From Galerina marginata (taxonomy: Eukaryota > Basidiomycota > Agaricomycetes > Agaricales > Galerinaceae), in assembly GCA_023014335.1 (NCBI GenBank), contig JAECYW010000006.1, positions 1,798,001 to 1,862,000 on the forward strand: a stretch of 64,000 nucleotides of DNA, read 5' to 3'. Under the pieces are notes generated by a model that saw only the letters and a program-made list of their open reading frames with translations, was not told where the DNA came from and did no database searches. A program made the position numbers and the translations under genes. Below, in pieces: positions 19,455 through 40,216 of this stretch (position 1 is the stretch's first letter; every line of letters starts with the position of its first letter).

Positions 19455-20106
19455 ATAGTACTGCGGTTGACCCCTTGAAGCTTTAGTAAACGTCGCTGAA
19501 GTGTCAAATAATGGAAAGAGAGGTCCTGTAGGCTTCAGATAAACTTTGGAGTAATAATTCCTGAGTAGCAAGTGGTATTGAGAGTGAAGAGCGACCTGCG
19601 AAAATACGTTCAAGAACTCACTGGACAACAAAGGGGATTCAGCAACAAAAAAAATGCACTTAGACGCGGATGGAAAACAGAACAGAACTTGAATCAGATT
19701 GCGAATCAGAATGACAAAAGACAAATTCTGTCAAAACTTTCCTCTAAACCCAGCAACGATAGTGGAAACTCGAAGGCAAATGGTCCAAGAGAAATAGTCG
19801 AATTAGGGTTCAGAGCCGCTTAAGGCTGATTGCAAGCGAGGGGAAGGTGAGGGACGCTGAGGCGATCACGCATAGCAGTTAGCCCGAATTAACGGAACAA
19901 TTCCCGTTGAATAATACATGAGTATTCACCGGCCGGGATAGAAAAATCGCAAAACGGGAAACCATTGTTTGAACAAAGGGATACATTTACAGGAAGGCTC
20001 GCGAGGAAAAGGACAAAAAAAAGAGGCAATATGAAACCGACCACGAGTAAGGAAAACAGAAAAATGAGACGATGGGTCACAGGAATTCAGCTAGACAGGA
20101 GAGCCC
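19455..20106. other. Intergenic between convergent genes
   Basis: 3' flanks of two convergent genes. No gene was seen. Confidence 0.5.
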
Positions 20107-21520
20107 CTATATTGACCTCATGAGCCGCGCAGATCGGCGTAGTGCACGATTGGGAGTAGGAGAAGTTGTCGATGAGCGACAATGAATTGCAGCGGCTGGA
20201 GAGGACGAACGAAATAGCTCTCGGTGCATGGCTTCTGGACTGGAAGGCGGTTTCCGGGATCGCATCGATTCAGGAGCCGGTGTTGGTGTGCGTATCCTCT
20301 TGGTTGGACGACGATCTTCGTCAAATAAGTCGTCGTCGCTATCGTCTGATTGATCATGGGTGCGTTTCGAGACCCTCCGACCCTCAAATTTCACTTGCCG
20401 GCGCATCATTATTTCGTTGTCGACTGCCATTGAGGGAGAGCCGAAAAATGACGTGGGTGAAGGTGGTTCCTCACTCCGGTGCCTGCTGGGCGACGCTCCA
20501 AATACAGCATCGATAATAGGGTCCAAATCAGACTGGAAATGTCGCAAGGACGTTGACAGCTGCTGAAGTTCATTGTCGGACGGCAAGAATAAATCCGCGA
20601 AGTTGGAGATACCAGGAAAAGCGTAGTCGAGGTCCAACTTAGGGGAAGAAAGGAAGGGAAGACTGTTGTCGACGTCATTGGATGAGTCTCCCTCGAAGTC
20701 GGAGGAGAAATGAAAAGGTAGCTCAATAGGTTCAATTTTGACCGGAGGAGAAAGGCTGCGTTCTACAGCAGAAGGAGAAACTGAGGTAGAAGCTCGAGGG
20801 CTGACATGACGATCGCGATCTGCCATAGGTGTGTCATTGGGCATTCACTGAGTTGTAGCTCCAACGAACGTGCTGACCTTGTCTAGTGGCCGTCCTTTTG
20901 GAAACAAGATTGCGAATATCATCAAGTTCCTCGCTGCGTTTACCTAGGCATACGGCCACATTCCCATCATGACCCAGCACAATAGTTTGAGTGCGCTCAG
21001 GCTGAGTGCGCTTAGACGCAAAAGTAAGGGTGAACGGTAACTTCAAAGCTCCCGGCTTGACAGAGTAATCGTTCCATTCACGTTGGTAATTAGTATTTGA
21101 GGTATTAGGTGAGGTTCCGACTAGGGAAACATTCACCGGAGTGAGCCCGGATTGAGTCCTGGAACAACTTTGTCAACACAAAATCAAGAATCTGAGAGGG
21201 GTCCGATACTTACTGATGGCAGTTCCGAGATCCACTGCGAAGGGACGAAACAATGAGCATTCCCCAAGTTCGTTCGGTTGGGCAGAACGAAGGGCCTACC
21301 TTGCGACGGCCGGTTCATCCGTTATTAAAACAATGTTTTCAAGGAAACGCAAGATAGTCGCATCGTGATCTCCCTGTTCCTCGACCAACACGTCCTTGAA
21401 GGTCGAAAGTTGGGAGGCCAACTTGTAAATTCTGTTCATGAAAGCAGAAGCGGTCGCCTTTTTCAAAGACACGACCTCTGCTTCATTGGCAGAGAGTTCT
21501 GGAGAGGCTGAGCTAGACAT
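20107..21520 (-). CDS. Hypothetical nuclear-type protein
   Basis: Four exons (21300-21520, a 21-nt microexon 21214-21234, 20878-21167, 20107-20819) stay in frame for 414 aa. The N-terminus is helical (SANEAEVVSLKKATASAFMNRIYKL). The middle has charged REWNDYSVKPG and KRSEELDDIRN segments. The C-terminal half is acidic and Ser/Pro-rich with basic clusters (RRVSKRTHD, RRPTKRIRTPTPAP) that look like nuclear localisation signals. The last intron was taken as 58 nt (20820-20877), because a nearer acceptor would give only 30 nt and break the frame. No domain was recognised; a transcription-related role is a guess. Confidence 0.55.
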
Positions 21521-22196
21521 TTAAGATAGTGCGCAGATGATTCTGAGGCGGGGCAGGGTGCTAGGTTTGCGAGTGACAAAGGCAAGAACCAAGTTGAGTG
21601 GCGCTCCACAGCAGCGCGCGGCACGAGCTATAAGGAAATCCGGACACCGGCGCTTTTGATGTTTGGATTTCCAGGTTGCTGTTTACGCGTCTTATAAGGC
21701 AAGAGAAGGCAAAGCGGAGTGGCACAAAACGGGGTCCGAGTCATGATCACATTCACAGCACTTGTGATACTGACAACAACAACAGTAGGCCTTCTTTAAG
21801 TTCTTAGCGTATTGAAACCACGTAGAGGTGACGATCAGAAGAGAATAATGGGAGTCCGGGAATACAAGAAGTGGGGCTAAGCAATGAACATGAGAGTGAC
21901 TAAAGAGTGATTGTACCAGTGAAGCGAGCGGAGATTTCCACGTGTTCCGTCGGACAGCAATGATCCGTCAATTCTCCATATTGACGGAGATATCAGCCTA
22001 TTATCAGGACAACTTTATCCTTGAAGAAGGTATCTACATAAGACAGTCCCTCAAGGTTCGTCAAATCCTTGTATATGTGAGGGAAAACGAGCAGGATTTT
22101 ATTTACACTGAAAAGCTACAAAATTTAATTTACATGGTGGACACAATACATAAAAGGGATGAAAGGGCCTTTCCTAATAAGTTCGTCTGGTACCTT
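21521..22196. other. Intergenic
   Basis: Promoter of the nuclear-type gene and 3' flank of F-box 4. No gene was seen. Confidence 0.5.
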
Positions 22197-23921
22197 TCAA
22201 TTCTGGCATAGAGCAGCTCCGTCGTTTACGAACGTGAGCACCCCCATGTCCACCATCCTGATAAACTCCTGCAAAGACTCCTGGTCCATGTGTTCATCGA
22301 TCTTCAGTTTGGCCACGCTTGAATTCAGACCAGGTACAATCGTCACCTTCCGCAATATGGCTGTCTTCGTAGGCGTAATGATACAGCTTGACTCGCTCTC
22401 GCGTATATGTGAGCGAATGACAAGCGGCTCGATAAAGTCAATCGACTCGGCCGATAGCCTTCCCTGGAATTCTAGAATCTTGAGGTGTGGAAGGTATTCT
22501 GGGTATTTGAAAGGATGGAGTTGGTCGAAAAACAACCCGGTCAGCCCTCTCCTTGATACAGATGGTTCCAGAATCGGTTTGAAGTTGCCAAAATGGCGGA
22601 TGCGCAGCTCTGCGAGTGACGAGAGGCGGGGAGAGGAAAGGAATTCGATGAGGTCGAGTTCGGGAGCAACATAATACTCCAAGGTGAGTTGGGTGAGTGC
22701 ACATGCTGAGCGCTCGATGAAGGGTAAAAGACTGCGAGCAAATGGTATTTTCCGTGGAACCCTGATGTGCAAGCTCTTGAGAGCGGGCAATGTGATCTGG
22801 TCGAAGAGTTCAAATACTAACGCATCAGGCGCCCGAAATTCTGGGCTAAACTCGAGGCTCAGGCTCCGTAAATTCTCATGCACTTTCGGTGGAAGAGCAT
22901 GCGCCGGGTTAATATTGGCGATGCCCGCTAGAACATGGCAATTGTTCAAGGTGAGTTTCCGGAGGTTGAAAAATTGGACAAGGAGGTTTCGGAGGTTAAT
23001 TTGGGATACATGGTTGAATATGAGGTGCGTGATTTGTTTCGTGGGGTAGTTGGTAAACGTGACGGTGCGCATGGTCAAGGACGAGAGTGATAAGGTGCGG
23101 AGGGCATCGGCTTGGCTGAGGTTGAGAGCCAGCGTCTGCCCGCGTGATTCTGCTTCTGCATGGTGTAGGGATACGTATTGAAGGAGAGGGAAGGAAAGAG
23201 GCATCGGGGGGAACGAAGCGTAGGGATAGCGACCGACACTATTACCCTCTTGCGCAGGACACTTCGAAGGAAGCTCGATGAAGCCATATCTGCGTGCTGG
23301 AAGGTGGAATTCAACGCGCCTCCATTGTCCGGAATGCCGAGCCAGTATCTGCAAGGCGAATCGAGATTTCGGGATAAAGCCCACCTCAGCATCGGCGTCG
23401 TACGACCGCGCATTTGACCGTGGCTCCTCGACGTAGATGTCCAACGGCCGGCCTTTCGCGCGCTCTAACCATTCAGAGAGTAGCTCCGTCTGTGCCTCAA
23501 TCCGTTTGAGGGAGATCCGCAGGACAATCGTCGTCCACAGCTCTGAAGAGACCCACGCGCATTCCCGACAGGCTCTGCAGATTTGGCCCAGCCACAGAGG
23601 GTAGAAGCTGCGGGGCCATCGTGCGGCCCCTCGAGTGGGTTGGCAAGCAAGGCTGAATATCTGAGCCAGGACATCTTCAGGAACGTCGAGCAGTCCCCTG
23701 GCCATGGAGTCCGATGTGGTGCATGTTGGGTCCATTGCTACCCTGGTACGATACTGAGCGTACCATACAGGGTGAAGCGAAGTTGGGGAAGGCGTGGGTG
23801 GCATGGATGAAAGACCGGCATCAACGGACCGGCCGCGGGGAAGCTGACAAGTCGTGATGAGGTCATGCAATGTGGGGGTGGATAAGTCTGGTTTGCACGG
23901 TCGCTCGGAAGGAGAGCACAA
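22197..23921 (-). CDS. F-box/LRR-type protein 4
   Basis: A single uninterrupted frame of 574 aa. The start is not certain: M63 (MDPTCTT) or M73 are alternatives closer to the F-box. The F-box VPEDVLAQIFSLACQP (about 80-95) is followed by the block PLWLGQICRACRECAWVSSELWTTIVLR and SEWLERAKGRPLDIYVEE, then leucine-rich segments to residue 560 and an end EFIRMVDMGVLTFVNDG. It is a close paralogue of the gene at 47761-49296, sharing these blocks almost word for word. Probable SCF substrate receptor. Its upstream side borders the foldback element. Confidence 0.8.
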   Translation of the reverse strand: MCSPSERPCKPDLSTPTLHDLITTCQLPRGRSVDAGLSSMPPTPSPTSLHPVWYAQYRTRVAMDPTCTTSDSMARGLLDVPEDVLAQIFSLACQPTRGAARWPRSFYPLWLGQICRACRECAWVSSELWTTIVLRISLKRIEAQTELLSEWLERAKGRPLDIYVEEPRSNARSYDADAEVGFIPKSRFALQILARHSGQWRRVEFHLPARRYGFIELPSKCPAQEGNSVGRYPYASFPPMPLSFPLLQYVSLHHAEAESRGQTLALNLSQADALRTLSLSSLTMRTVTFTNYPTKQITHLIFNHVSQINLRNLLVQFFNLRKLTLNNCHVLAGIANINPAHALPPKVHENLRSLSLEFSPEFRAPDALVFELFDQITLPALKSLHIRVPRKIPFARSLLPFIERSACALTQLTLEYYVAPELDLIEFLSSPRLSSLAELRIRHFGNFKPILEPSVSRRGLTGLFFDQLHPFKYPEYLPHLKILEFQGRLSAESIDFIEPLVIRSHIRESESSCIITPTKTAILRKVTIVPGLNSSVAKLKIDEHMDQESLQEFIRMVDMGVLTFVNDGAALCQN

Positions 23922-24095
23922 GAAACAAATGTTGATGGCAGCAAGTCATCTCCACTTCCCTGCTGCGTCCTCTGTGGAGTGCGTGGCCATACACTTGACT
24001 CGCATACCGGCGACTCCACAACAAAATTTCCTGACGATAACCTGACTTGGGCTAAATACTCTGATAGGATTTTGCAAACGCCAGATGGAAAGATT

Positions 24096-24230
24096 ATCTG
24101 CATTGGATGGAACGTCGGAAGCGGTGCACCCTGCAACCATGGCGGCAAGCGCGTCCACCTCTGCTCTTTCTGGGGTGGAGACCACCATGCCTTTTCTTGG
24201 ACATGCCGAGTCAAACCTGACGACATCTAA
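24096..24230 (+). pseudogene. Truncated inverted copy of zinc-knuckle ORF 3' end
   Basis: This encodes the last 44 residues of the 180-aa protein at 25023-25565, in opposite orientation. It is identical except for one base that turns CSFCGG into CSFWGG, removing a probable metal ligand. The copy has no start of its own and lies in the left palindrome arm, so it is a duplicated fragment. Confidence 0.8.
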
Positions 24231-24300
24231 TGACAAGTTCCTCCTCATCCTGATAAATTATTAAAACTTACAATCATGCAAAATTTTCAGAATTATTCAT

Positions 24301-24427
24301 CATTTATTATTCATTATTCATTATTCATTATTCATTATTCATTATTCATTATTCGTTATTCGTCATTCGTCATTCATCATTCGTCATTCATCATTCGTCA
24401 TTCATTATTCATGATTCGTTATTCGTC
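24301..24427. repeat. Heptamer tandem array, left arm
   Basis: Six perfect ATTATTC units (24313-24354) are followed by variant units with G, C or A substitutions (GTTATTC, GTCATTC, ATCATTC). The mirror array lies at 24833-24952 with one ATTATTC unit fewer. Confidence 0.9.
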
Positions 24428-24666
24428 AAAGTTCGTCATTCATCATTCATGCTATCTATCATTCAATGTATGTATATGCCTCTCATTAACGATGATTTAT
24501 ATTTTGTTCCGCTCTATCTGGGGGTCGTCGATCCGGTTCCTTCTTGTCCCAAACCGCGAGTTGTGAGCTTCACTCTATTTGGAGCAGCGTGTTTGGTTCC
24601 AAAAAATTCGGACCGCACTCCCACATTCAGAGCTTGTTTGCGCTGAGAAATCGGGCGACAAGCGAC

Positions 24667-25157
24667 AACACGCTGCTCCAAATAGAGTGAAGCTCACAAC
24701 TCGCGGTTTGGGACAAGAAGGAACCGGATCGACGACCCCCAGATAGAGCGGAACAAAATATAAATCATCGTTAATGAGAGGCATATACATACATTGAATG
24801 ATAGATAGCATGAATGATGAATGACGAACTTTGACGAATAACGAATCATGAATAATGAATGACGAATGATGAATGACGAATGATGAATGACGAATGACGA
24901 ATAACGAATAATGAATAATGAATAATGAATAATGAATAATGAATAATAAATGATGAATAATTCTGAAAATTTTGCATGATTGTAAGTTTTAATAATTTAT
25001 CAGGATGAGGAGGAACTTGTCATTAGATGTCGTCAGGTTTGACTCGGCATGTCCAAGAAAAGGCATGGTGGTCTCCACCGCAGAAAGAGCAGAGGTGGAC
25101 GCGCTTGCCGCCATGGTTGCAGGGTGCACCGCTTCCGACGTTCCATCCAATGCAGAT
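24667..25157 (-). repeat. Right arm of large foldback palindrome
   Basis: The reverse complement of 24096-24593. It starts at AACACGCTGCTCC after the spacer and ends inside the zinc-knuckle ORF (25023-25565), whose 3' third it contains. The right arm thus belongs to the intact gene and the left arm is probably the copy. Confidence 0.95.
24833..24952. repeat. Heptamer tandem array, right arm
   Basis: Mirror of the left-arm array, reading GAATAAT/GACGAAT units on the plus strand. It has five ATTATTC units (minus strand) beside the shared 12-nt edge, against six on the left. Confidence 0.9.
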
Positions 25158-25565
25158 GAGATCAGAACCCATTTCGGCTGGTTCATGATCAAAAAGGATA
25201 TCAGCCAAGAAAGTAGGCATGACATCCTTGAACATAGCTGCATAAGACGGGCGCTTGAGCCTATGAAGATCTTCATCATCGATAGTGAACATCGAGGCTG
25301 TCTCAGAGCCAGGGACTGGGTGAGACTGAGGGTCCGCAATGTGAAGAATGCTCTTCCTGTGCCGCTCGTCATTCTGATCCTCAATATCCTTACACATTTT
25401 AAGCTTGGCCTTGAGAGTGAGAGATTTAAAGAGTTGTATGACGCCAGGGCTGGTATGTGTTTTCGGGACATGAGGATGTTGCTCGGGGTTGTGTTCCTCG
25501 TCGGGATATGAGACAGGTGAATGCCTTGGAGGATCAACAACAGCCTGAGTATTGGAAGATGCCAT
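25023..25565 (-). CDS. Zinc-knuckle-like protein, possibly retroelement-derived
   Basis: An intact 180-aa frame. The first 130 residues are polar, with a basic helical part (FKSLTLKAKLKMCKDIED) and YAAMFKDVMPTFLADILFD. The last 45 residues contain a compact Cys/His pattern: CIGWNVGSGAPC, then HLCSFCGGDHHAFSWTC. Patterns like C-x-x-WN-x-G...C...H-x-C-x-x-C-GG-x-H-x...C occur, as I recall, in gag-like proteins of fungal retroelements and in orphan proteins near them, but I cannot assign this one. Its 3' third forms the right palindrome arm. About 100 nt upstream of its start lies the left end of the DNA transposon, which may have cut it from its promoter. Confidence 0.55.
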   Translation of the reverse strand: MASSNTQAVVDPPRHSPVSYPDEEHNPEQHPHVPKTHTSPGVIQLFKSLTLKAKLKMCKDIEDQNDERHRKSILHIADPQSHPVPGSETASMFTIDDEDLHRLKRPSYAAMFKDVMPTFLADILFDHEPAEMGSDLICIGWNVGSGAPCNHGGKRVHLCSFCGGDHHAFSWTCRVKPDDI

Positions 25566-25606
25566 TTAAAGCTCGAAGAATGAGATACTAGCGATGAAAT
25601 TTATTC

Positions 25607-25620
25607 GACGCGGCAGACAG
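25607..25620 (+). repeat. 14-bp inverted repeat flanking the transposon (left)
   Basis: GACGCGGCAGACAG, the exact reverse complement of 29294-29307. Both lie outside the target duplications, so without the transposon they would form a 14-bp stem with a loop of about 49 nt. Confidence 0.8.
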
Positions 25621-25661
25621 AAAGATATTCGCAGAGTAATACCTGAGACGAGGAATGTTCA

Positions 25662-25666
25662 TAATC
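25662..25666 (+). repeat. Target-site duplication TAATC (left)
   Basis: The five bases directly outside the left terminal repeat, matching 29286-29290 directly outside the right one. Confidence 0.75.
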
Positions 25667-25681
25667 TTGGGGAGGCGCAAC
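25667..25681 (+). repeat. Left terminal inverted repeat
   Basis: TTGGGGAGGCGCAAC. The next bases (GCCTCC) also let the left end fold on itself as GGAGGCG-CAA-CGCCTCC (25671-25687). The right end lacks that hairpin. Confidence 0.8.
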
Positions 25682-25858
25682 GCCTCCAATAAATCTGGAC
25701 AGATGACTAAGCGCACAGCCACCACAAACCTGCCAAATGAGTTCCACTTCGACTCTTCATCGTCGATGAAGGCTCCCGAGGCTGTTTTTGACGACTTTAG
25801 GCATTAAAAAAATTGTATTATATAGTGTAAAGTGTATAGGGATAGAAATAATGTACTA

Positions 25859-28787
25859 TTATGCTAAATCATCATTATGATCTGATTCATAGAATGAGTC
25901 CTCTGGTCCAGCCATTGTTACGTCGTTATCCACTGCAGGTAAAGGAGCAGGGGTAGCATTTGCACTAGGGGTGTTGTGCTGAAGGTATCTTTGGACCGCT
26001 TTCTTCAACTCAGAAACGCGGTCAGCTTTTTTCTTCATGTGAGACTTCAAGGGAACGTGCTCCGCGGTCTCGGATTCGTCCATGACAGGCTTGGGAAGCT
26101 TCTTTTCCTGTTCTCGATGGAAGTCTAGCTGGCGGTTGAGTTCGGCGTTGTCCAGCCCATCGATGTCGGCATCGCTCAAGTAAAGTTTCTTGCTTGTTTC
26201 CACGAGGATGGCCGCTCTCTCATCTCGCTTTTCCTGCCTTTTGGTCTCTTTTGCAACGTTCTCAGTCACCTTTTCCTTGTCTGCTTGGATCTGCGCTGCT
26301 TTCATCTGCCTTTGGAGCCCGCTCTCATCGCGCGTCCGCGCTGCTTGCCTGATGTACAGATGATCCGCGTCTTCAGTGAGTTTATTTGAGATAAAATCTT
26401 CTGTGTTGTTCTGGCCTGCAATGAATGCCGCGTTGAATTTATGCAATGTTTCTGCGGGACGTCGTCGTTGACCCAAGCGCCACCTTCCGAGACTGCCTTC
26501 GTTAATGTCATTGGTGGACGAGAAGAACAGCGTGTCGCGTTCGGCCTCGGTCAACTTATCGATGTCGCCACCTTCCTTGAATTCCTCTGAGAAACGGTCA
26601 ACAAAGGTTTCACGGGCCCCTTTGACAAACGCGACGATAGCTTTTTTGAGGTTTGGGAGTTCAGGTGCAATCTCCCAGATAGCTGTCATGACTTTGGTAC
26701 CCCAGTCATCGCGTTCTCTTCCACCCAAGGATGCAGTTTCATGTGAAGCATCACGCGATGTCCATAGCGTCGGGTCTGAAATAACCTTGTCGAGAAAGGT
26801 TACTTTCTTTTCGAAGAATGGTTTCAGGTCCAGAATGTTGTCATTTGCGCGGACGTGCTGCATGAAGGGGCGCGAGACATTGACATTGTACAAGGCAAGG
26901 ACACAGAGCTCGGTTATTGTCGGTATGTCCTTCAGGGAATTTGCGAAGTTCTTTTCAATATTCGTTTCGCCAGGTTTGTCCTTTCCATTCCGTACGAATT
27001 CCATGAAGTTGATGAAGAATTGGCGGTAGGCAATTATCGTTCCAGCTGCCTCGCCGTGCGATCCATATCTTGTGTTGCTGACATCGGGATAGGGAACACG
27101 ATGACCGACATGGTATTCCATATAAAAATCGTACGTATCTTGTTGACCCTTCTTCTTGTCTTTATTTCGACAAATTAAACCGCCGAGCATTGTTGCATGA
27201 CTCCCGCCTCGTTTCGAGACTTCGGCGGCTCGAATTTCGGCGCTAGTGGGTGTCGAGACTTCTGTTTGATTCGCTAGAACAGCCGCATTGTCTTTGTTGG
27301 CAAGAAGAATAGGTCGCGTTTCGTTTTCCTGGCTCCACATATCCTGCATTGCCTTATCTCCTCCTTTGTTGCAGTTTAAGTCCTTGTGCATGCAGCAACC
27401 TGTCCGAATGAATGTTGCAAGACGCCGCTGGTGATCTTCAGGCAAGTTATCAAAGACTTGCTTCCCGACTTCTCGCACAATCTCGATATCTGCGGCTGCC
27501 TTTTCTTCTTCCGAGAGCTTATCCCAAGCTTCTTGCCCGCCATGTTTTTCGATCTGGTTTGCTTTTAAAGGGACGAGAAGGGCGATGACTCTGGACACGT
27601 TCATTCGGAAAAGGGCCTCCTCTCCGAGTCGCTGAAGAATTGCCTCCATCTTCCAAATTCTAATAAGCTCGTGGCTTTTCTTTTGGTCAGCGGCATGATC
27701 ACCACTTGTACCAATTAATCGGTAAGCGAAGTCGTCTGGAACAAATTTTAGGCCATTGCGTTTGGCTATCGGACTGTTGTTGAAGATTGTAGCAAGTTCC
27801 CGAAGGCGCTCCTTCAAACCATCCACCTGCGTTTCACTTGTATGATTTATAGATGTTCCGACTCCAAGAGTACGGAGGGTCCATTTCGGCTCATCAGTTG
27901 GCTTGGTGTAGTCAACGACCTTCAACGCAATTGTTCGGGACTCAAACTCAATGTGTTTGTGAGAGGTTGAATCCGAACTGTAAGTTATCTCTGTATCTCC
28001 CAATAAGTTGCATGTCCGACCTCTTTGGGATGGACCACTCACTGTCCGCAACAGCCATTTCATATGCCAGCTGAATATCGGCTGCAACACCTGCTTCCAA
28101 AACAGCGCGCTGAACGGTGCGCTTGCTCATCCTCCGCTTAATCGTGACACCAAGACTCTTTCCAATCTCCTGTAGTGCTGCGCCAACCTTCGCCTCCGCC
28201 ATTCCGGAAGAAACCATAAGTCTTGCGAGGGCTCGAGATTGTTGTGAATAAATGCCCCGCTGCGTTAATCGGAAACTTCCTGCACGGCGCTTTGTCTTCA
28301 TCCTGTCTTTCAAGCTCTTTATTTCAGCCACGATCCGCTTGTTTCTCTTGATGAGGATAGACCGTTCCCATGTTAAATCCTTTTTTGCTTCCTCCAAATC
28401 CTTGATCTTGGCTTTTAGCAGGCGAATTGACTCGTCGGCCATCTCCTGCATCTGCTCTAGCTCCTTCCCCATCATCTGCAGTGCACCCCGCAGCCTATAA
28501 GCCTGTTCCTTGACGTGTTTTAAATTGACTTTACGTGCATTATTGGCTTTTTGCAGCCTGTTATTTCGTCTTTTCTCGTTCCAGTACCGCGTATTTTCGT
28601 GCTTCAGTTGCTGTTTACACTCGTAGAGTTCTTTCTTCAGGTTTTCTATAGTCCCTTCGGACATAGACGCGTCGACACTACCAGAGTCCGCACGATTGGT
28701 CGTCCAACGAAGGTCCCTTGCCTTCTGGAGAGAGCTAATTCGGGCCTCAGAGCGCCGTTTTGGTTTTCGGGCCAAGTTTCGAGTCAT
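25859..28787 (-). CDS. Transposase-like coiled-coil protein (novel RNase-H-fold candidate)
   Basis: Two exons (28043-28787, 25859-27990; intron 52 nt) give 958 aa. Residues about 45-168 are a long basic coiled coil. About 175-232 is helical with SKRTVQRAVLEAG, which could be a DNA-binding fold. The core then shows, in order: ITYSSDSTSH (Asp255 after a beta-like stretch), LIGTSGDHAADQ (Asp346), CCMHKDLN (Cys447/448, His450), SNTRYGSHGEAA (about 554-563) and NDINEGSLGRW (Glu746). hAT-type transposases present D, D, C-x-x-H, a TRW motif and E in the same order, so an RNase-H-fold nuclease is my inference. A charged helical tail follows. I recall similar proteins as unnamed families in Mycena and relatives. 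The gene fills the TIR-bounded element. Confidence 0.75.
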
Positions 28788-29023
28788 TAAGAGTTGCCTA
28801 GGTAAGATAGATATTTATGAGGGAGTAAATTAGCACAGAGAACAATCGAGGACGTGTTTTTCGAGCGCGTTCTATCCAGCGCGGCCCCTTTACGCGTTAG
28901 ATTTGTGATTATGTAATCCATTATCTCGCGTTTCTCAGCCTCATTTTTAAAAACAAAATATTGGCTTTGCACGGCAATGTAGCCTTATAGTTTATAGAGA
29001 CAATATCATTAGTTTTGCATTTT

Positions 29024-29134
29024 TCAGGGAATGGCCTGAGATTTTCGAGGCGAAGTCCCTAAATATCGTTAGTTTGAGTAGGTAATTGGCCCTCACTCTT
29101 ATCTTATCGTGGATATTCTCAGGCCATTCCCTGA
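29024..29134. repeat. 18-bp inverted repeat inside the transposon
   Basis: TCAGGGAATGGCCTGAGA (29024-29041) and its exact reverse complement (29117-29134) are 75 nt apart, between the transposase start and the right terminus. This may be a transposase-binding or regulatory site. A short direct repeat, ATATC(A/G)TTAGTTT, occurs at about 29004 and 29062. Confidence 0.85.
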
Positions 29135-29270
29135 CAAACTACTTCTGGGACCAATTTCTGAAAGAAATTTCCCAATTGAGATGCCGGAGCGTGCAAAATA
29201 TTGTTTTTCCATAATTTTGTCTATCTATAGTGAGAGCAAACATGTACAAATAAAAATTGATCTGACCGGT

Positions 29271-29285
29271 GTTGCGCCTCCCCAA
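29271..29285 (-). repeat. Right terminal inverted repeat
   Basis: GTTGCGCCTCCCCAA, exact reverse complement of the left terminus, followed directly by TAATC. Confidence 0.8.
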
Positions 29286-29290
29286 TAATC
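29286..29290 (+). repeat. Target-site duplication TAATC (right)
   Basis: Matches the five bases directly outside the left terminal repeat. Confidence 0.75.
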
Positions 29291-29293
29291 TCG

Positions 29294-29307
29294 CTGTCTG
29301 CCGCGTC
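29294..29307 (-). repeat. 14-bp inverted repeat flanking the transposon (right)
   Basis: CTGTCTGCCGCGTC, reverse complement of 25607-25620. Confidence 0.8.
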
Positions 29308-29720
29308 ACCTGACTTATCCTCAGATGAGTTGATCTGCGACCAACTCATTTCGGAATCAGCCAAAACTGTGCCTACGAGAGCGCACTCCGAGTGCATATA
29401 GATTGTGCATTGCGATATGATATATCCATCTACGTGTAATTAAAACAGTCCATACGTAAATCAGCAGGATTGAGAGGGGTATCGTGCAAGTGCAAGTGGA
29501 GCCAAACAGCTGTATGGAATGGAGAGTGCTGGCGGGGATGGCGTAACAGTATAGAACAAAAGAACACGAATGAAAGCAAAAGAACGTGGTATCAGATCTT
29601 CCCAACCCAGCCAACCCTCACCATCTTCACACTACGGGTAGGTGCATCAGCCAACGGCGGTTGAGCTGGCACCCAACTACGGAACTCGGAGCGTCGAGCT
29701 TGAGTTCCACTACGGGAGCA
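29308..29720. other. Transposon flank and AUR1 3' region
   Basis: Contains a small hairpin, ATGAGTTG...CAACTCAT, at about 29326-29349, then the AUR1 3' UTR. No gene was seen. Confidence 0.5.
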
Positions 29721-31136
29721 TCAATCCACGCGTCCTCTGGCATTTCCATTAGCCTGCGCGAAAGGGAAGGATCCAGCCACCGGACTCCAGCCATCCTCCG
29801 GACCCCTCTCATCACCTCGAATCAAACTCGCGATCGACGCCGTATGTCGATGTCCAGCTCCAGATTTCACCCCCCCTCTTTGAGACCCTTTCTTCGCATG
29901 GGGAGGTACTTCTTGCACAGACGGTGGGAAGCTCGTCGTACCCGGCACAGGGGAGCGATACGTGATGTCAACCTCCTCGTCATCTGAGCTGGGCTCGCTG
30001 ACAGTGTCGAACTCCCTCGCAGAGAGCATTAGCCCACCGCGTCCCGAATAACCTCCATTTGCGAGTCGTGGATCTTCGAGGTCGTATAAATCGTACTTGT
30101 TCCTTGAGCGTCCGTTTACGCCTGACCCTGAAGAAGCGCCAAGGTTCAAGTTGGGCGGGTGGGCAAGCGCTGCGGGACCCCTCAAATCGTCCGGAAGGAA
30201 TAAATAGAAAAATGCTGTGGCAAGGCATCCGCCGCCAACAACATCGATGAGGTAGTGATGAGACAGGTACATGGTTGCCCAGTAAAGTACACTGGCGTAT
30301 GCCCATATATACCGTGTTGCTTGTGGGAAGAAGTGAGAGAGGAAAAGGGCTTCGAGGGTGGCGTTTCCTGCGTGGAGAGAGGGGAAGGCACCGAACACCA
30401 GCGGGGAGTTTTCAAATCCCGAAGTGTATGTTTTGGAGTGGAACAAAGCGTCGATTCGCGAGAGACCACCAGGAGAGCCTGGCATCCCGTAGTTTGCTGG
30501 TGTAAGACCGTAAATAAGCTCGTACCACGGTGCGGAACAAGGTAGGATAAGTTGAATGAAAACGCCAACAACGTTCATGTACCCAAACGTGCGTGCCCAT
30601 AGGTGAAGGGTTGGTTTTGTGCGGAAGAGCCATAGGAAGATGGCAACAACGAATGGGCAGGTGAAATGCACGACGCCGTAAGGCAACCATGCTATAATAT
30701 CGAGAATTGGGTGGGTGAAACGTGTGAGGATGTCGGAAATGTTGGCGCCGTACAACACGGACTCAAGGGTTGGTAGGAGAGAGACAGAGATGGAGGGTCT
30801 CCACGCCGAGGGCATAAAACGGCTGGAATACCACGAGAGGATCCATGTGAACACTGGTGTGGCGGGTACGAAGAACTGGCTGGTGAATGGGACGAGGAGG
30901 GCGATTGTGTATAGAATAGGAATGGCCAGCTTGGTTGGGTACCCTGGTTCTTGCATTAGGGTCAACCAGAAGGCGGCATTGGCGATGTGGAATAGGTATA
31001 TCGAGTCCCCAAACGTGAACTGGTGGGCGCGCAGTCGTTTCAGTGTTACTGCGGGGTTCAACGACTTGTCTAGTCTTGCAACGCCAGCGACAAAAGCTTG
31101 AAATATATCGGAAAACGTGCGCGCAATGGACGCCAT
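29721..31136 (-). CDS. AUR1: Inositol phosphorylceramide synthase catalytic subunit
   Basis: An intronless 471-aa integral membrane protein. An in-frame ATG 48 codons upstream (31280) is possible, but the extra residues look like leader. The enzyme transfers phosphoinositol from phosphatidylinositol to ceramide in the Golgi and is the essential, fungus-specific target of aureobasidin A. It has the PAP2/LPT-type layout: several transmembrane helices, then CSAPWYELIYG (about 190-200), FGAFPSLHAGNA (His of motif C3) and YLSHHYLIDVVGG (His and Asp of motif C4). A long polar cytosolic tail, rich in Ser/Gly/Asp, fills the last 130 residues. The neighbouring transposon has not disturbed it. Confidence 0.93.
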   Translation of the reverse strand: MASIARTFSDIFQAFVAGVARLDKSLNPAVTLKRLRAHQFTFGDSIYLFHIANAAFWLTLMQEPGYPTKLAIPILYTIALLVPFTSQFFVPATPVFTWILSWYSSRFMPSAWRPSISVSLLPTLESVLYGANISDILTRFTHPILDIIAWLPYGVVHFTCPFVVAIFLWLFRTKPTLHLWARTFGYMNVVGVFIQLILPCSAPWYELIYGLTPANYGMPGSPGGLSRIDALFHSKTYTSGFENSPLVFGAFPSLHAGNATLEALFLSHFFPQATRYIWAYASVLYWATMYLSHHYLIDVVGGGCLATAFFYLFLPDDLRGPAALAHPPNLNLGASSGSGVNGRSRNKYDLYDLEDPRLANGGYSGRGGLMLSAREFDTVSEPSSDDEEVDITYRSPVPGTTSFPPSVQEVPPHAKKGSQRGGVKSGAGHRHTASIASLIRGDERGPEDGWSPVAGSFPFAQANGNARGRVD

Positions 31137-33103
31137 TGTAGAAGGATAGTTCGACGTCGTCGGGAACGTCTCACTCACAGTCGTGCTCGTCGTGGGGGTC
31201 GGCAAGGAGCCGTGGGAAACTAGGAAAATATCTCTTGCCCTTTCAAGCCGTGAGTTTGTCATTCCGCTCGTCATCATCATGCCGTAGCTCCTCGCAGGTT
31301 CTCGTAAACAAGCTCATCCATCTATCCGTGAACCCTGGATCATTGTCAGTTCCCCATGTCTGCTGATTGTCCCAAAAAAGCTCTGCATAATAAGCAGAAC
31401 GCAAACCAGTTATCCGGCTCGGAGACTCGAACTTGCACCACTGTGTTTAAATCCTTTTCTAGGTGGCTAAGATATAGCACTCACCAGCGCTTGAACCGGT
31501 TGGCTTCATCCTTAATCCTATCTGTATCTGAACGAGCTTTCGCGCAATCCTGGTCTTGGATCTCGAGCCAGCATCCTGGCTCAGGTTTCTCATGAATCGA
31601 ACTTCTGGACGCTGTCAAACAATCTGCGTGTAGCTAGTATGCAGGCGCACCGTCTCTTCTATCTGAAGCCGTTGGATGTTATCTGCGACCATCTGTCAAT
31701 GGTTATACCTTCACCCTCCAGGATTATTCCCTGCGTCCTTCTGCTTGTGTGTTTTGTGAGGACGTAAGCGATAAAATCGGAAACAAGAAGAGTGCTTCTC
31801 GCATCTCTGATTAAAACAGCCACATACTTCATCAGGAGGGTTGGACGGCCAATGGATGGGTGCGAACCCGGTCTATTTTCGGTGTTCCGTCGAGCCACGG
31901 ACCAACGTTAATTATACTCATTGACTAAAATGGAAGTCCTCTTTCGAACACATTCTCGGTAAACACATCCTTGGTACCTCTGTAGCCATCTCTATCCTTC
32001 GTATTTGAGCCTATCGGCGAATGTTTCGGCCTACTCTGATTTATTTGGACCAAAACACCTGGCTATCGTAAATTACTGGCCCATTTCAGAATTCCTGGTC
32101 TGTCGACTGATTGTCCTTCTCATCTATCGGTTGTATTATCCCTTTCCTGGAACTTCGACATTTCAAAGCAACTTGTGAGTTCCTATGACGAAAATCCTCC
32201 GCCACAGCTTGGTTCATAAAACAAAGGTTTCAAGGATAGCCTCGACGATGACTCCGATCTAAGTGACGGCTGGAACTTTTTAGCACTCCACTGTGTCCAG
32301 ACTCCAGAGAATTGCCACCCCCGCCGGGGCGTTCTCTCGAATATCTGTACTCGTTGCCGCTTTCTTGGAGACACTTATCTTACTACAATAGCACACTAAT
32401 AGGAGCGAAGGTGCAGACAGTGGACCAGAAGTACACTCATCTAGTACTTAGGCGAGTTCCTGTGTATTGCCATTCTTATCTGACTCTATATATATTCCGC
32501 GATGACCTTTTTTCTTCATTTCTGGGCTCAAGTAACTGCCCGAACATTCAGGGCTCGAACTCTTGCATGAGATCGGTGAGTCGCAAGTCGTTTTGGAGTC
32601 GTTCTCCAAGTTGAATTCATTCCGGGTATGCCGGATCCGCACGAGGCCGGCTATAGATCCCGCCAACGTTTCCCTTTCAATTGCTCGAGGGATCTCGAAT
32701 GCCACCTCCTTGAATCCCGACATCCTCCCAACATCCTCTCAAACCTACTTATATTCTTCGAAAAATGTTACTAAAATAACAAGAGCTGAAAAGGAGCATC
32801 AACGTCTCGGGATCTTGGCAAGAGGTCGTCATGTTGAACGTTGACCCCACCGCTTTGACCCCTCGCTTTGACTGGTAGTAACCACACTCCAACGCTCGCA
32901 TTCTCTTGTTGCTTAGTCCGGCGTTGCTACCTTTTAGGGTGGAGTGTCGACGCTTGGTCTACATCCTGCTGGATAAAAGGACAGGCCACTGTTGGAAATG
33001 AACCACCAAGAACGCAAACTACTCCTCCCTGGTACCATTTTAACTCCCTCTGCTCATCGCGATGACTTACGCTTAATGCTGTCAGAAATACGAATTCCCG
33101 AAC
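31137..33103. other. Intergenic, no gene recognised
   Basis: About 2 kb with AUR1 promoter sequence at its left edge. A tRNA-like segment at 31414-31499 fails folding (see rejected items). Other ORFs are short and featureless. Confidence 0.45.
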
Positions 33104-34480
33104 ATGAATATCAGGATCAAGAAAACGCCACCGGCCCAACGTCTTCCCTTTGACGTTCTCTGGTTCCTCTTCCGATACGTCGTTGCTGTGGACGGGGACG
33201 CAGGACCGACGACCATTTCCCATGTTTGCAAGCTGTGGCGTCAATCCGCCTTGGATACCCCACTGCTGTGGACAAAAATCACCATGCGGCTCTACTTCTA
33301 TAAGCAAAAGCACCAAAGAGCGGAGGCCCGCTTCAACCGCTCGGCGAATTTGCCGTTGGATCTCACTTTTCATTGCTCGCGCAACCTCCAAGAACCAGAG
33401 AGAGACTCTTTGATCATCCCGCACGCACATCGTATTCGGAGCCTGGTCATCTATTCCAAGGGAGGGATGCTCTCTGAGTGGATGTGGATGCGCCTCAACA
33501 TACATATGCCCAGATTGGAAGAATTCAATACCATCATATCTCGCGTCCCAGCTCTTCGTGCTGTTCGGAAGGTTACCTCGCTTGAGGATGTCAGTAATCT
33601 TGTGCCCTTCGTACCAAACAATCGACCAACGGCTTGGCTTGGGTGGGTTACAAGAGGTCTCACCTCGCTCAGGCTTGCCACACTCGACTTTTATACCGAA
33701 ATCTCTATGATAGAGCTTTTCAGCATCCTCGAATACGCCGCCGTTACACTCCAGGAATTTGAATACGAGGGTTATACACCCAGAGATGAGCCCTTCCATT
33801 CATTTCCCCCTCTCAACTTCCCACAGTTACGCAAACTGGCGGTTTCTTTCGTCGACGATATCAGTCCCCTTCTCTTTATCTTCTTCTCTGCCTCGTTGGA
33901 CAGGCTGACTTTGCGCAATTTTAAAGCTTGCCCCTCACACGGCGTCGCTCGCGATATAAACCCGGATTTTGTGATTACTGACCCCCTCGTTTGGCTTTTG
34001 CCGATTATCGGTCAATGGAACACCATTACCCACCTCGAACTTTTCGCTATCGGCGAGTTGCCCAGGAACCAAATTCTGGACTATATTAGGTCTTTGGACA
34101 AGTTGGAGTCGCTCGTTCTCTATGGTGTGGGTGGCCCGGAATGCTTCGCTCAAGAACTCATCCGCGATCCCGAAGGCAGTGGGCCCCTCCTCCCAAAACT
34201 CAAACGTCTTCTGTGTACCGCGTTTAACTCAGGACTGGATGTGATCTTACTCCTACTCTCTCGTCGGTTCCATCAACTTTCTCGGTTGGACAAGCTGACT
34301 ATCGACTCCAACCTCTTCTCTTTCCTTGTGGAACAGGATTCGGATTCGTTGTCCATTCTGAAGGACGCAGCGTTGGAGGTTATGGTCGTCGACAATCCGA
34401 TCCTACAAGAATATGTCCCACTTAATGAGGTGCTTGTTCTGACTAACGAACATCTCTTGCAACAGCCCATTACTGTCTGA
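33104..34480 (+). CDS. F-box/LRR-type protein 5
   Basis: Intronless, 458 aa. An F-box-like start (RLPFDVLWFLFRYVV, about 13-27) leads into the conserved block ISHVCKLWRQSALDTPLLWTKITM seen in agaricomycete F-box proteins. Leucine-rich segments (LTSLRL, LRKLAV, ITHLEL, LESLVL) run to about residue 430. No partner or substrate can be inferred. It belongs to a different subfamily from the paralogue pairs elsewhere in the window. Confidence 0.75.
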   Translation: MNIRIKKTPPAQRLPFDVLWFLFRYVVAVDGDAGPTTISHVCKLWRQSALDTPLLWTKITMRLYFYKQKHQRAEARFNRSANLPLDLTFHCSRNLQEPERDSLIIPHAHRIRSLVIYSKGGMLSEWMWMRLNIHMPRLEEFNTIISRVPALRAVRKVTSLEDVSNLVPFVPNNRPTAWLGWVTRGLTSLRLATLDFYTEISMIELFSILEYAAVTLQEFEYEGYTPRDEPFHSFPPLNFPQLRKLAVSFVDDISPLLFIFFSASLDRLTLRNFKACPSHGVARDINPDFVITDPLVWLLPIIGQWNTITHLELFAIGELPRNQILDYIRSLDKLESLVLYGVGGPECFAQELIRDPEGSGPLLPKLKRLLCTAFNSGLDVILLLLSRRFHQLSRLDKLTIDSNLFSFLVEQDSDSLSILKDAALEVMVVDNPILQEYVPLNEVLVLTNEHLLQQPITV

Positions 34481-34740
34481 CTCTGCTTCATTTATGTACT
34501 CGTTGATGGGAGTGCTTGATCTGTGTACTGGTAAATTCGAAAGGCTTTCTGTTGTCAATACATATATGTACTATATTTCCCCTTTATGTAATTCAGTTGT
34601 GTGCAACTATTGATTCGGGCCATCGGATCGTAGGTCTGCACTCAATAATGAACGCTGGTCCGTGAGCGTGCAACTTCTGGCAGCTGACTAAAGATCTATC
34701 CATCCATCGATTAGAATCTCTTCCAGCATCTTTCACGATC

Positions 34741-35813
34741 ATGGAAGTTATCGCTCAGTACAAAAACAAGGAAATCGCCAAAGTTATTGATCCCAGTGGG
34801 TGGTTATTTGTCTTCATGGATCCGTCACAGGTTTCCGGCAACTGGGCCTGACATTTGATTGGCGGTTTGACAGCTGTGGCTGCTTTCGCGCCATTACTGA
34901 AAGCGAAGAAGACTTTCATTCGTGAGATACCCGTGAAATCGTTCACATATGGACCTACAGATCGTCACCAGGTAGCTTCTGTTTGGAATATGAGCATTGG
35001 GGGAAAAGCTAATATAACTTCTAGTTGGACATATATTACCCCTTAACGACCACATCCGAAAAGGCGCCCATCTTGTTCTTCATATACGGAGGTGGATTCA
35101 ACACCGGCGAACGCAATATATCTCCTAGAAGCTTTGGGTTGGTCTACGCCTGTCTAGCAGCGTTCTTTGCTCGCCGAGGATACATCGTGGTTATCCCTGA
35201 TTACCGCCTCGTCCCGCATGTTTTATTCCCTGGACCTGCTGAGGACATCCGCGACGCCATTCGGTGGGTCACCAATAACCCAGAAAACCTCGTCTCCGAT
35301 GGGTCTCCATTCCCCGACTTAAATACCGTCGTCATTATGGGCCATTCCGCTGGAGCAGCGCATATAGCCACATTGTTATTCCACCCCAATGTCCTCTTAG
35401 ACAACGACGAGCTCCGGTCAAAGATCAAAGCTGCGGTCCTTGAATCCCCTCCTTACGACCTTTCTGCTATGACCATGGACTGGGGAGAAACAGCAGCAAT
35501 ACACACAAAATACTGGGGCACTCTGGAAGGAGCTAAAGCCAATGACCCGCTTCACCTTTACCGCCGCCTTCCAAATACCGTCATCGAGTCCTTGCCGAAA
35601 ATCTTGATGGTCGAAGCAGAAAGGGAACCAGATTGGTTAGCAGACGCCGGGACAGCGTTCCACGAAGAGGTCAGGACGAGGACCGGCGAAAACATAAAAA
35701 GAATAATTGCAAAAGGCCATAATCATGTCAGCATAAACTGGGCACTCAGCAGCGGAGAGGGTGAGGATTGGGGCGAACAGGTGGCGGAGTGGTTGAGCGA
35801 AATTAACGCGTGA
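34741..35813 (+). CDS. Alpha/beta hydrolase (esterase/lipase, fold-3 type)
   Basis: Three exons (34741-34795, 34874-34971, 35025-35813) give 313 aa. The catalytic outline is complete: oxyanion-hole loop FFIYGGGFNTG, nucleophile elbow GHSAGAAH, an acidic residue probably in EREPDW, and His in KGHNHVSINWAL. The oxyanion loop reads YGGGF where the hormone-sensitive-lipase/fold-3 family usually has HGGGF, a change I note as unusual. There is no signal peptide, so it is probably intracellular and acts on a small ester, lactone or amide. The similar kynurenine formamidases cannot be excluded. Confidence 0.8.
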
Positions 35814-35995
35814 ATCGGACTCTGGAAAATGGAATAATGGACCTCGTATACCAAACCTAAATAAATAACCATGGTTCCGACCAATTCTTTATAGCTGGAC
35901 ATTCATTCTTGCATCGTAGATTATAGATTTTTGTAAAGGCGTCTAAGATAGTTTAGAAAGAACTGGCCATTGTCGGATTGTAATGACGGTGTTGC

Positions 35996-37275
35996 TTACC
36001 ATTTGGTATCATAGTCAATGATTGTCGTCCCTATCTTCTTTCCCAACAAAAATGATTTGTCGACGATGGCACTCGCTATCGCCACATCCTGCAAACCGAT
36101 TCCTACAGATTTAAACATTGTAATGGGGCCATCGTAAAGATTTTCCGAAACACGGGGCTTCTCAATATCCAATAGTTGGCAAAACGATTCCAATGCCAGG
36201 TTTCCGTTTTCGTCCATTGGAATTAACTGTCCCAATTCTGTCATTTGCTCAGGGGAAACTCCCGCGTCTATGAGCTCTCCAGCCTCATGCAAGCATGCCT
36301 CCCGGGAATCGACGAGTAGAACGGGAAAATAAGATGCAGAATTTTCACCGTCCCAAGATTTAAAGCTGCCTATTGCTCTCTGGACGAGGGATTTATCGAC
36401 TTCTCGCATCGAAGGTGTGTAGCTTCCTATAAGAATGATGTGTGTACCGTTTTTCACCCAGGACGAGGGAAATAAAGGCGTAGTGGAGGACGTGGCGCAG
36501 ATAATGATATCGGCCGATTTGACGGCCGATTGAATGCTGCTCGATTCATTATTGTGGATCTCTTGGTCTGATGCGCTGATATTAGAGGCATTGGAGGCGA
36601 GAAGAGAAATTTGAACATGGGAGAACCGAGATATTAATTTTTCCTGGAGAGATATGGCACGATGATTGGCGGTACGATTAACGACGATGCACTGAGTGAT
36701 GGATGGAAAGTGACGAATGTGAAGATCAAGGTGGGACTCGATCTGCTGCCCCGCTCCAAAAGCGACCAATGTCTGAGGCTTAGATGGGCCTACCAGGCTC
36801 GTGGAAAGTAGCGAGCCTATTTTGACACAGAGATTTAGTTTGTTGGATTTCGAGGGCAAAATAATCCCCTACCAGCGGCATTTCGTAAAGCAGTCAGTTT
36901 CCTGGCGTTTACAATGGCCTTCGTTACTCCGGTTTCCTCGTCTAATATTAGGGTAGTCGCGGGGAGGCCACGGGAGTCATTCTGTCTCGGTACGCAGACT
37001 ACTTTGATAGCTGTGTCACCTAGACGAGTACTAGCCTGAGCGGCGTGAGAGGGCGGCGGCTCATGAAGATGTAGACCAATTCGAGCTGGCATAAAAAGCG
37101 CAGTATGATGAGCGGTTGGGATGCTGATCCGCGGAGGCATAACCACAGAGCCTTCCCTCGCTGAAGAATCTGACAAGCAAATGAACACTTGCGCCATCAG
37201 CAGCTGTAAATCGTCTGGTGAAAGAGCGGAGGCAACGGTATCCACATCAGACGCAGAAAGGACGAGAAGAGACAT
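35996..37275 (-). CDS. Ornithine cyclodeaminase/mu-crystallin family protein
   Basis: Two exons (36873-37275, 35996-36816) give 407 aa. Family features: an N-terminal dimerisation part with MPPRISIP, the NARKLTALRNAAGSLLS helix, a Rossmann GAGQQIESHLDLH for NAD(P) (the normal GxGxQ pattern), CATSSTTPLF and IGSYTPSMREVD, and a C-terminal SVGIGLQDVAIA. Such enzymes cyclise ornithine to proline or act as imine/ketimine reductases, and the fungal substrate is usually unknown. It is longer than bacterial members because of two low-complexity inserts. It shares a divergent promoter with the DUF4419 gene. Confidence 0.85.
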
Positions 37276-37644
37276 CCAGATTTATTAAGTTTCTTTGGTG
37301 AGATTATAGTGGAATAGGACTTTTCAGATTGATGAACGAGATGGTGTAGGCATTAACGTGAAGGTGAAGAGAGAGCAGTGGAAGAAGACAACTCGAAGAC
37401 CGACGGCCCAGTGGGCCGGTTACCCGCTCTCCCACTGAACTGACAGTGAGCGCTGCCAGCAGTCATCAACGATGTGTTCGAAGCAATGTTCAAAATCTAA
37501 GGATAGTTTAAATCCTTCACTTGGTACATCTATCACATTGAAGTCTTTGAATAGCTACGCCGGTTCTACTCTTATATAAGGGCAGCTTCGAAACGACTCT
37601 GAGACTGTCCGGTGTCCAAGTTGTCCCCACTTCATCCCTTGGTC
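37276..37644. other. Divergent promoter region with TATA box
   Basis: A 369-nt spacer between divergent genes, with TATATAAG on the DUF4419 side. No other site was recognised. Confidence 0.5.
37573..37580 (+). promoter_or_regulatory. TATA box (TATATAAG)
   Basis: About 65-72 nt before the DUF4419 start codon, the usual position for a fungal TATA element. Confidence 0.5.
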
Positions 37645-39020
37645 ATGCCCGTATCTTTCTCTGTTGCCAAACACGATGCTAATCCAGTTCCTGCACCACG
37701 GAATTCAATTTCAAATGCCAGTGAATTTCTGGCGGATAGTTGGGCGATAAAAGCGAAAACCGTCCATAGCGCAGAATTATTGCAGACATCTCTGGTCAAC
37801 GCCGACTTCTCAGCGATATGCGTTGAGGATAATGGATTTGTAGACACCGTGAGGAGGGCCTACAATGGACATCACCATCTCGTTATCAGGTTTGTGGTCA
37901 TGTATTTGAATTTCTTTTGCGCTTACCTGGTGTAGGCCCGACGATGTCTGGATCGCCATCTTAGGACAATTTAATTTCTAGTGTGTTTTTAGTTTCGTCT
38001 TGCTTTTGGTGGCCAATTTACACTAGGAATCGTTTCCCATTAGCGTTAATGCCCATGTCGAGGAACTGCGTCATCAATTCGTAGCCCACGAAGGAAAGAA
38101 GAAGCTCACGGTTTCTGCAATAGGAACTCGATATACTGTCGACTTTGAGTACCTCGCAAATCAAATGTCAAACCTGATCCACGATAATGTTCGTCAGTTG
38201 TCAACAAATTTGTGTAGCCCATTTTTTATATTTGGTGGCAGGTCGTGGACAAGCATCTGAAAAACTGGATCCTGCCAGACTTCACCACGACCACACATAA
38301 TGATACAGTTATATGTTCGGTCCTAATGATGTCGACGCTCAAGGCGTATGTCGCGTACTGGCACATTTTTTTCTTGGGCACGGGCTGACCCTTGCTTGCA
38401 GGTATTTCAAGTATGAGGTGCTGCTTCTCTGTGGGATACCTTCCGTCACTCTCGAAGGCGAAAAGGAAGACTGGGAAAAGCTGCTGGCCAGGTTGGATAA
38501 ACTCAGTGACTTCGGGGCAGAGCCAGCCGTATGGGCAACACTCCTTCGTCCTATCCTCAGTCGATTCGTGAATGCTTTTGAGGGCGAGCCAGATATCGAC
38601 TTCTGGGGAAGAGTCTGCCACTTCCATTTCGGTGGCTCCGGACCATCCTACCTTTCTGGGTGGATCACCGCATTCTGCGTCTGGAACAACCAGGGTAAAT
38701 GGCAGGGACCTGCCCTTGGTATACCCACGGAAGACGAGAGTTGGATAGAGAAGGAGTACGGTTTCAGGCAACTGGAGTTGGACGGAGTGAAATATCCAAT
38801 CATCGACGACAACCACGTCCCCGTGGCATTCTGCGAAGTTGACGTTAAATTGAACGATAATGGAGATATAGTGGAGTGCATGATGGTTTCTGGCCACTTG
38901 GCCAGCATTGCGGAAGGGGATCGGAAGGACATAATCCGACCACTGCCGTCTTGGTTCATATTTGTCAAAGAAGTGGGCGAGGATCCGAGGAGCTTGAGAC
39001 GACGAAAAAAGGCGTTATAA
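37645..39020 (+). CDS. DUF4419-domain protein
   Basis: Five exons (37645-37889, 37936-37980, 38044-38188, 38242-38345, 38402-39020) keep frame for 385 aa. The fourth exon begins after a GTTCGT donor intron. Hallmarks of the fungal DUF4419 family: HHLVIRPDDVWIAILGQFNFYVN, FVAHEGKKKLTV, ILPDFTTTTHNDTVICSVLMM, YEVLLLCGIPSVTLEG and HFGGSGPSYLSGWITAFCVW. Function is unknown; the family is abundant and variable in Agaricomycetes. No signal peptide or membrane segment is present. The start was set at the first ATG after the TATA box. Confidence 0.85.
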
Positions 39021-40216
39021 TGGGGGGAAAAGAATCGAGTTCGATGTGAGCAGGGTTATTTGTATACCGGCCATAAAGATTCCGAATTGAACTGAAAATA
39101 AGCGAGTGGTTAACCAGAATTCTTGTGAGTGTCGAACGAGTAGCATTGGTGTTTTGGAGTGTCAATGCCAAGTCCCAACCTGGTAGTTTTGATTATAAGA
39201 AGCGTCAAATTAGTGCAAAGACCAACTTACAAGAACATTGCCAAAATCAGTCATGTCTTCTGCACCCGACCATGTCGTCCAGGCTGACATCTCTCCTGAC
39301 AAAGGAGCTGTCTCTTCCCTTGAGCTTTGCCTGTCAAGACTGGTGTCCCAGTCGCAGATAGGGAGGTCAAAGGCATTACTGTTCATGCTTCTGATGAAGG
39401 CGGTAAATCCACCGTTAGTGGAGTAACTGGCCCCTCTCGCAACATCCTCAGGACCGTGAAAAACATCGTGGCCTAAGTTGAGAAGGATAACCAGGTCAGT
39501 GAAGGGCCATTACCATCGAACTGAAAGGGGCTTCGCCAAGATCGTGGAGAATTCACGCAGAACCTGTTCAGGACCATGCAAGCCAGTACCCAAACTTCAA
39601 CACCGTTATATGCCATGTCCAACACCTGGTCACCTGGAATGGGACCAACGACGAGGATTAGGACCACTGGCATGAAGAATTCGACATCCAAATTGGCAGA
39701 ACCATTGGGAAAATTCATCATGAACTCTCGCTCCGGGCTGTCGCTGAAATTAGGTACTTAGATATGCGGTTTTCTGGGCCGGCTTCGGAACTTTCAGTAG
39801 ACTTGGGGATGCAGGCTTCTTGAATGTATGGGTATTCCTGTTGAGAAACAATCAGTGATGCAGACATATTGCAATGAGGGGGCTTACCAAAGAAGAGTCA
39901 AATCCAGTTTGGCAGACGGGCCGTCTTCGTCGTCAACGCGTCAACCCTTGAACTCGAAGTCGAGACCCACGCAGGCGGGAGGAGCAAAGGTTAAGATAAT
40001 ATCAGATATCGTTTCCCAGACCAGATCATTGGGTTCGAATTTTTTTGGAACGGATATACAAGACATGACAATTAAAGTTGCTATTTGAGTCTGAACGGAG
40101 GCAATGGGGTGTGCGATTAGGATGAAGAGCCATCGCACACGAAACTGTACATGGGAGAAAAAGTAACCTTGGACTGAGGAAAGGATAGGACTTGTGCGTC
40201 ACTTGAATGATACATG
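39021..40216. other. Intergenic, possible gene relic
   Basis: Plus-strand segments at about 39253-39420 and 39560-39760 look protein-like in composition but are broken by stops and have no consistent splice sites. No family was recognised; it may be a decayed gene. Confidence 0.35.

Follow-up and report, generated by a model that had tools for sequence, protein, structure and literature searches.

A 7-bp-duplicating DNA transposon of Galerina marginata with a predicted hAT-like transposase core, possibly of an unnamed superfamily

DNA transposons of the hAT superfamily carry the terminal bases YARNG, and their target-site duplications measure 8 bp, or 5, 6 and 7 bp in hAT5, hAT6 and hAT7. PMC12730594 describes hAT7 families with 7-bp duplications in Puccinia, and duplications of the same length are reported for Galileo of the P superfamily (PMC2775673). 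A C/DxxH motif is common to the transposases of hAT, Kolobok, P and MuDR, and Dada elements combine a DxxH motif with duplications of 6-7 bp (PMC3706591). In Marasmius oreades an active 3.4-kb 'hAT' is accompanied by derivatives of 597-631 bp (PMC9674265). Here we describe a 3,617-bp element from Galerina marginata, located in a 64-kb window (the whole stretch analysed, positions 1,798,001 to 1,862,000 of contig JAECYW010000006.1). It is very probably a DNA transposon that moves by cut and paste, belongs to a lineage mobile until recently and encodes a DDE transposase of hAT-like fold. The element works like a hAT transposon and yet cannot be filed as one; it represents a lineage with 7-bp duplications, possibly an unnamed superfamily, in a comparison that Repbase lay outside.

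The element and its borders, placed by a scan for inverted and direct repeats and by comparison with empty sites, are the following.
25668..29284, no strand assigned: complete transposon, 3,617 bp, delimited by empty-site comparison
25661..25667, plus strand: left target-site duplication ATAATCT, 7 bp, from the repeat scan; single copy at empty sites
25668..25681, plus strand: left terminal inverted repeat (TIR) TGGGGAGGCGCAAC, 14 bp, perfect
29271..29284, plus strand: right TIR GTTGCGCCTCCCCA
29285..29291, plus strand: right target-site duplication ATAATCT, 7 bp, from the repeat scan; single copy at empty sites

In the inverted-repeat scan, which looked for direct repeats of 4-9 bp beside the ends, ATAATCT is the longest exact duplication flanking the element. 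The element's right flank (from 29285) was found at five further places in the genome, on contigs C6, C19 and C39, and the three on C6 were compared. Against the two flanks joined by one ATAATCT, the region at C6:1947457-1947529 is 97.4% identical over 577 bp and that at C6:1949463-1949538 98.6% identical over 146 bp, each with a single ATAATCT; a third and more diverged copy of this host repeat, at C6:1946458, reads AAGAATCT at the insertion point. Because the two near-identical empty copies of the host repeat hold one ATAATCT, the element is inserted into repeated host sequence and duplicated exactly 7 bp of it. A sequence-only reading had proposed a complete DNA transposon at 25667..29285 with perfect 15-bp TIRs and a 5-bp duplication, TAATC. 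The transposon is confirmed by its TIRs, duplication, intact gene and empty sites, and the repeats are indeed perfect; the true ends lie one base inward on each side, at 25668 and 29284, a departure that falls under one of the refuting conditions set by that reading, if by a single base per side. Both lengths were misjudged because the outermost T..A pair, which is part of the duplication, had been counted into the element: the TIRs measure 14 bp, and TAATC is present at the empty sites inside ATAATCT. As the duplication is 7 bp long, the argument from a 5-bp duplication against ordinary hAT, Kolobok and Tc1 fails, and hAT5 is dropped as a candidate. The terminal 15-mer has no second exact occurrence within the window. 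A chance control used 200 random 5-kb sequences generated with a first-order Markov model based on window positions 20001-40000; none contained a matching pair, defined as 12-bp repeats with the outer 6 exact and at most one mismatch in 12, 500-5000 bp apart and flanked by an exact 7-bp duplication. The host repeat itself corresponds to window positions 25157-25667 plus 29292-29357 and has more copies on C6, some of them inverted.

Further copies of the lineage, the lack of which the same reading would have counted as refutation, turned up elsewhere in the genome (69.3 Mb in 43 contigs) in DNA, protein and pattern searches. The exact window element has one full-length copy, and the protein identity of its genomic relatives ranges from 62-63% (over nearly the whole of exon 2) down to 28%. 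For 16 copies the two ends could be located, with the caution that the end scans themselves required a duplication; 14 of the 16 show a perfect 7-bp duplication (ATAATCT, CTTTAAA, CACATGC, CTAAGAG, TGGCTAA, GAGCCCG, TGAATAG, CAACTAG, GTAGATG, CTCTAAC, CATATGG, TATGCAG, CCATTTC and CCAGATC). The copy at C1:1138478-1140181 has a duplication, TAATGTA, shifted by one base, and the one at C2:74564-75174 has none. In 11 of the 16 the ends were also set independently, by the point where homology to another copy stops when flanks are included; nine of these have perfect 7-bp duplications, one a duplication shifted by one base and one none, and three of the homology comparisons overrun the ends, by 1, up to 3 and up to 12 gapped bases. 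The count excludes six loci or groups with no convincing end pair in the sequence compared: L013 (C23:3765955), L014 (C8:498706), and two groups each on C39 and C21. Weak end pairs, seen in L013 and in one of the C21 groups, were set aside, and the truncated copy C22:139311-139510 was left out as well. All 16 placed copies start with TG, as TGGGGA, TGGAGA or TGAGGA (consensus TGRRGA), and the copy ends read TGGGGAGGCGCA, TGGAGAGGCGCA, TGAGGAGGCGCA, TGGGGACCGGCA or TGGGGATGTTC, some with single-base variants.

Three 4.2-kb copies, 96-99% identical, carry three different duplications, and their homology ends at or within three bases of the TIRs. The derivatives, compared with their flanks included, behave likewise: those of 611 bp on C1, C39 and C2 are 97-99% identical and a 610-bp relative on C12 shows 75%, the 1.7-kb copies on C1 and C8 are 98% identical, and the 602-bp derivatives on C12 and C31 are 100% identical. 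Since this last pair carries different duplications, it shows that the lineage moved recently, the evidence coming from a sister family with ends TGAGGA and not from the window element's own copies. It is also shown that the non-autonomous derivatives end in the same manner. Annotation of the lineage and tests in cells now have sufficiently well-defined ends, duplication length and derivatives to start from. The Marasmius oreades 'hAT' has similar sizes to this system; likened by size alone, it is possibly, though not necessarily, a member of this lineage.

The intact gene of 958 amino acids that the sequence-only reading placed inside the element holds up: it lies on the minus strand in two exons, and splicing out a putative 52-nt intron gives the full frame.
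28043..28787, minus strand: exon 1, with the ATG, a predicted coiled-coil helix of 124 residues and a three-helix region resembling a helix-turn-helix (HTH)
27991..28042, minus strand: putative intron, 52 nt, GTGAGT...ACAG, from reading frames and splice signals
25859..27990, minus strand: exon 2 up to and including the stop codon, encoding the RNase H/DDE core and the C-terminal helices, from reading frames and predicted structure
27971..27973, minus strand: codon of D255, candidate first catalytic acid; 77 of the 78 alignment rows not gapped here have D, the other 15 of the 93 being gaps
27698..27700, minus strand: codon of D346, candidate second catalytic acid; all 88 rows not gapped here have D, the other 5 of the 93 being gaps
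27386..27397, minus strand: CxxH motif C447-C-M-H450; C447 and H450 conserved in all 93 rows
26498..26500, minus strand: codon of E746, candidate third catalytic acid; 91 of the 93 rows have E and the other two K

Some homologs read through the position of the intron. The predicted core (predicted local distance difference test, pLDDT, 92) has the hAT transposase Hermes as its best fold match by a clear margin, and in its predicted RNase H domain a large helical insertion precedes the last catalytic helix, as in hAT. A fold search with the N-terminal part returned nothing under E 0.8. By sequence, the PDB gave one match at E 0.75 in one search and none in another; against Pfam, exon 2 had no match at E <= 10, and exon 1 matched fifteen families, every one below its cut-off. 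The earlier claim that the protein matches no classical transposase therefore stands for the sequence profiles tested (Pfam, fungal hAT, KDZ) and fails for the fold, the core being Hermes/hAT-like. On these features, the transposase would assemble through its coiled coil and the HTH-like region would bind subterminal DNA. The RNase H core would then cut both ends, with metal ions presumably held by D255, D346 and E746, and the ends would be joined to the target at positions staggered by 7 bp, which host repair may convert into the duplication.

Homologs number 269 at E <= 0.001 with the single sequence as query and 274 with an alignment; 120 of each were listed, giving 149 different ones, and the taxonomy covers those that are listed and named. 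The hits listed with the alignment did not lead beyond this family or this kind of fungi. The named ones we take to be all Agaricomycetes, from Agaricales to Botryobasidium, and many of the listed homologs are unnamed metagenome proteins. The listed names read 'hypothetical' or 'uncharacterized' in every case but P0044, which is labelled both 'unnamed protein product' and 'CCHC-type domain-containing'. P0044 alone among the 149 has a Pfam domain precomputed for it, PF03732; a transposase Pfam domain is found in none of the 149. Scanning 16 homologs with hmmscan at E <= 1 returned twelve families and no transposase family. The lineage is spread through mushroom-class fungi and, as judged by sequence profiles, separate from fungal hAT. 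Its fungal 'hypothetical proteins' would have to be reclassified as a transposase family, and the C/DxxH transposase group (hAT, P, Kolobok, MuDR, Dada) would gain a branch. Excerpts of the literature searched (including PMC12730594, PMC3706591, PMC9674265, PMC2775673 and PMC4455052) contain no description of this family, and the locus tags of six homologs were not found in that literature. By the rule stated for Repbase, iterated searches should not bring separate superfamilies together (PMC4455052).

The strongest competing account is that of a divergent hAT family, for instance one from the rust-fungal hAT7 group with its 7-bp duplications, that has changed so far that its C-terminal dimerisation domain is no longer recognisable. 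We regard it as possible, if doubtful. With hAT and Hermes the protein shares the predicted RNase H core with its large helical insertion, the candidate DDE triad and a CxxH motif between the second D and the E, which is not specific to hAT; it also has an RY.S motif at the position of RW.S in the hAT of this genome. The duplication, at 7 bp in 14 of 16 copies, would fit hAT7 only, as seen in the Puccinia families. The sequence comparisons point the other way. PF05699, the hAT C-terminal dimerisation domain, has 26 matches in the genome and none in this element; neither it nor the BED zinc finger was detected at E <= 10 in the window's exons, and no hAT Pfam domain or BED finger was found at E <= 1 in any of the 16 homologs scanned. 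The N-terminus consists of the coiled coil and the HTH-like region. In hhalign against 24 fungal hAT proteins the probability was at most 0.2%, in a comparison run with no remote positive control and with animal and plant hAT and Puccinia hAT7 outside it. Between the second D and CxxH lie 101 residues, against 33-39 in the five, of seven fungal hAT proteins, where a pattern found both, which makes 62-68 more here, and the ends are TGRRGA, not YARNG.

Membership in the P superfamily, in the manner of Galileo, would account for the 7-bp duplications and for the C/DxxH motif, and is nonetheless improbable: no THAP or P-type RNase H Pfam domain was matched at E <= 1 in the 16 homologs, and the fold matches shown are headed by Hermes. 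P transposase structures are missing from those top matches, which excludes nothing, and the genome search with PF21787 carries no weight, having no match anywhere, controls included. That a domesticated host gene should lie by chance between repeats is barely conceivable; the intact gene and the single full-length copy of the exact element would suit it, but it fails against the paralogous repeats with their empty sites and against related elements with duplications of their own. Dada is ruled out by the 14-bp TIRs and by the lack of any Rfam or tRNA match in the window, Dada-U6 and Dada-U1 being without TIRs and Dada targeting small RNA genes (PMC3706591). Kyakuja-Dileera-Zisupton (KDZ) transposase genes are abundant in the same genome; PF18758 has 135 matches there, several per gene being possible, and none in this element. 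Its absence rules KDZ out together with an hhalign probability of at most 0.1% against six KDZ proteins of the same genome, obtained with no remote positive control; Zisupton has 8-bp duplications (PMC12730594). MuDR was rejected on PF10551 (MULE), with nine matches in the genome and none in this element, and Kolobok on the duplications, which are 7 bp of differing sequence and not TTAA.

Near its right end the element also contains a perfect 18-bp internal inverted repeat.
29024..29041, plus strand: left arm of the internal inverted repeat
29117..29134, plus strand: right arm of the internal inverted repeat
A 10-mer pair from this repeat also occurs in the 610-bp derivative (L006) and is absent from L007, L008, L010 and L011. 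Outside the element, the host repeat is adjoined by a near-palindrome of about 990 bp (window 24096-25085), which is about 93-94% identical to its reverse complement and has copies on contig C6. On the other side, a 519-aa open frame on the minus strand (window 29721-31280), with its 3' end about 440 bp from the element, presumably encodes a fungal inositol phosphorylceramide synthase (Aur1-like).
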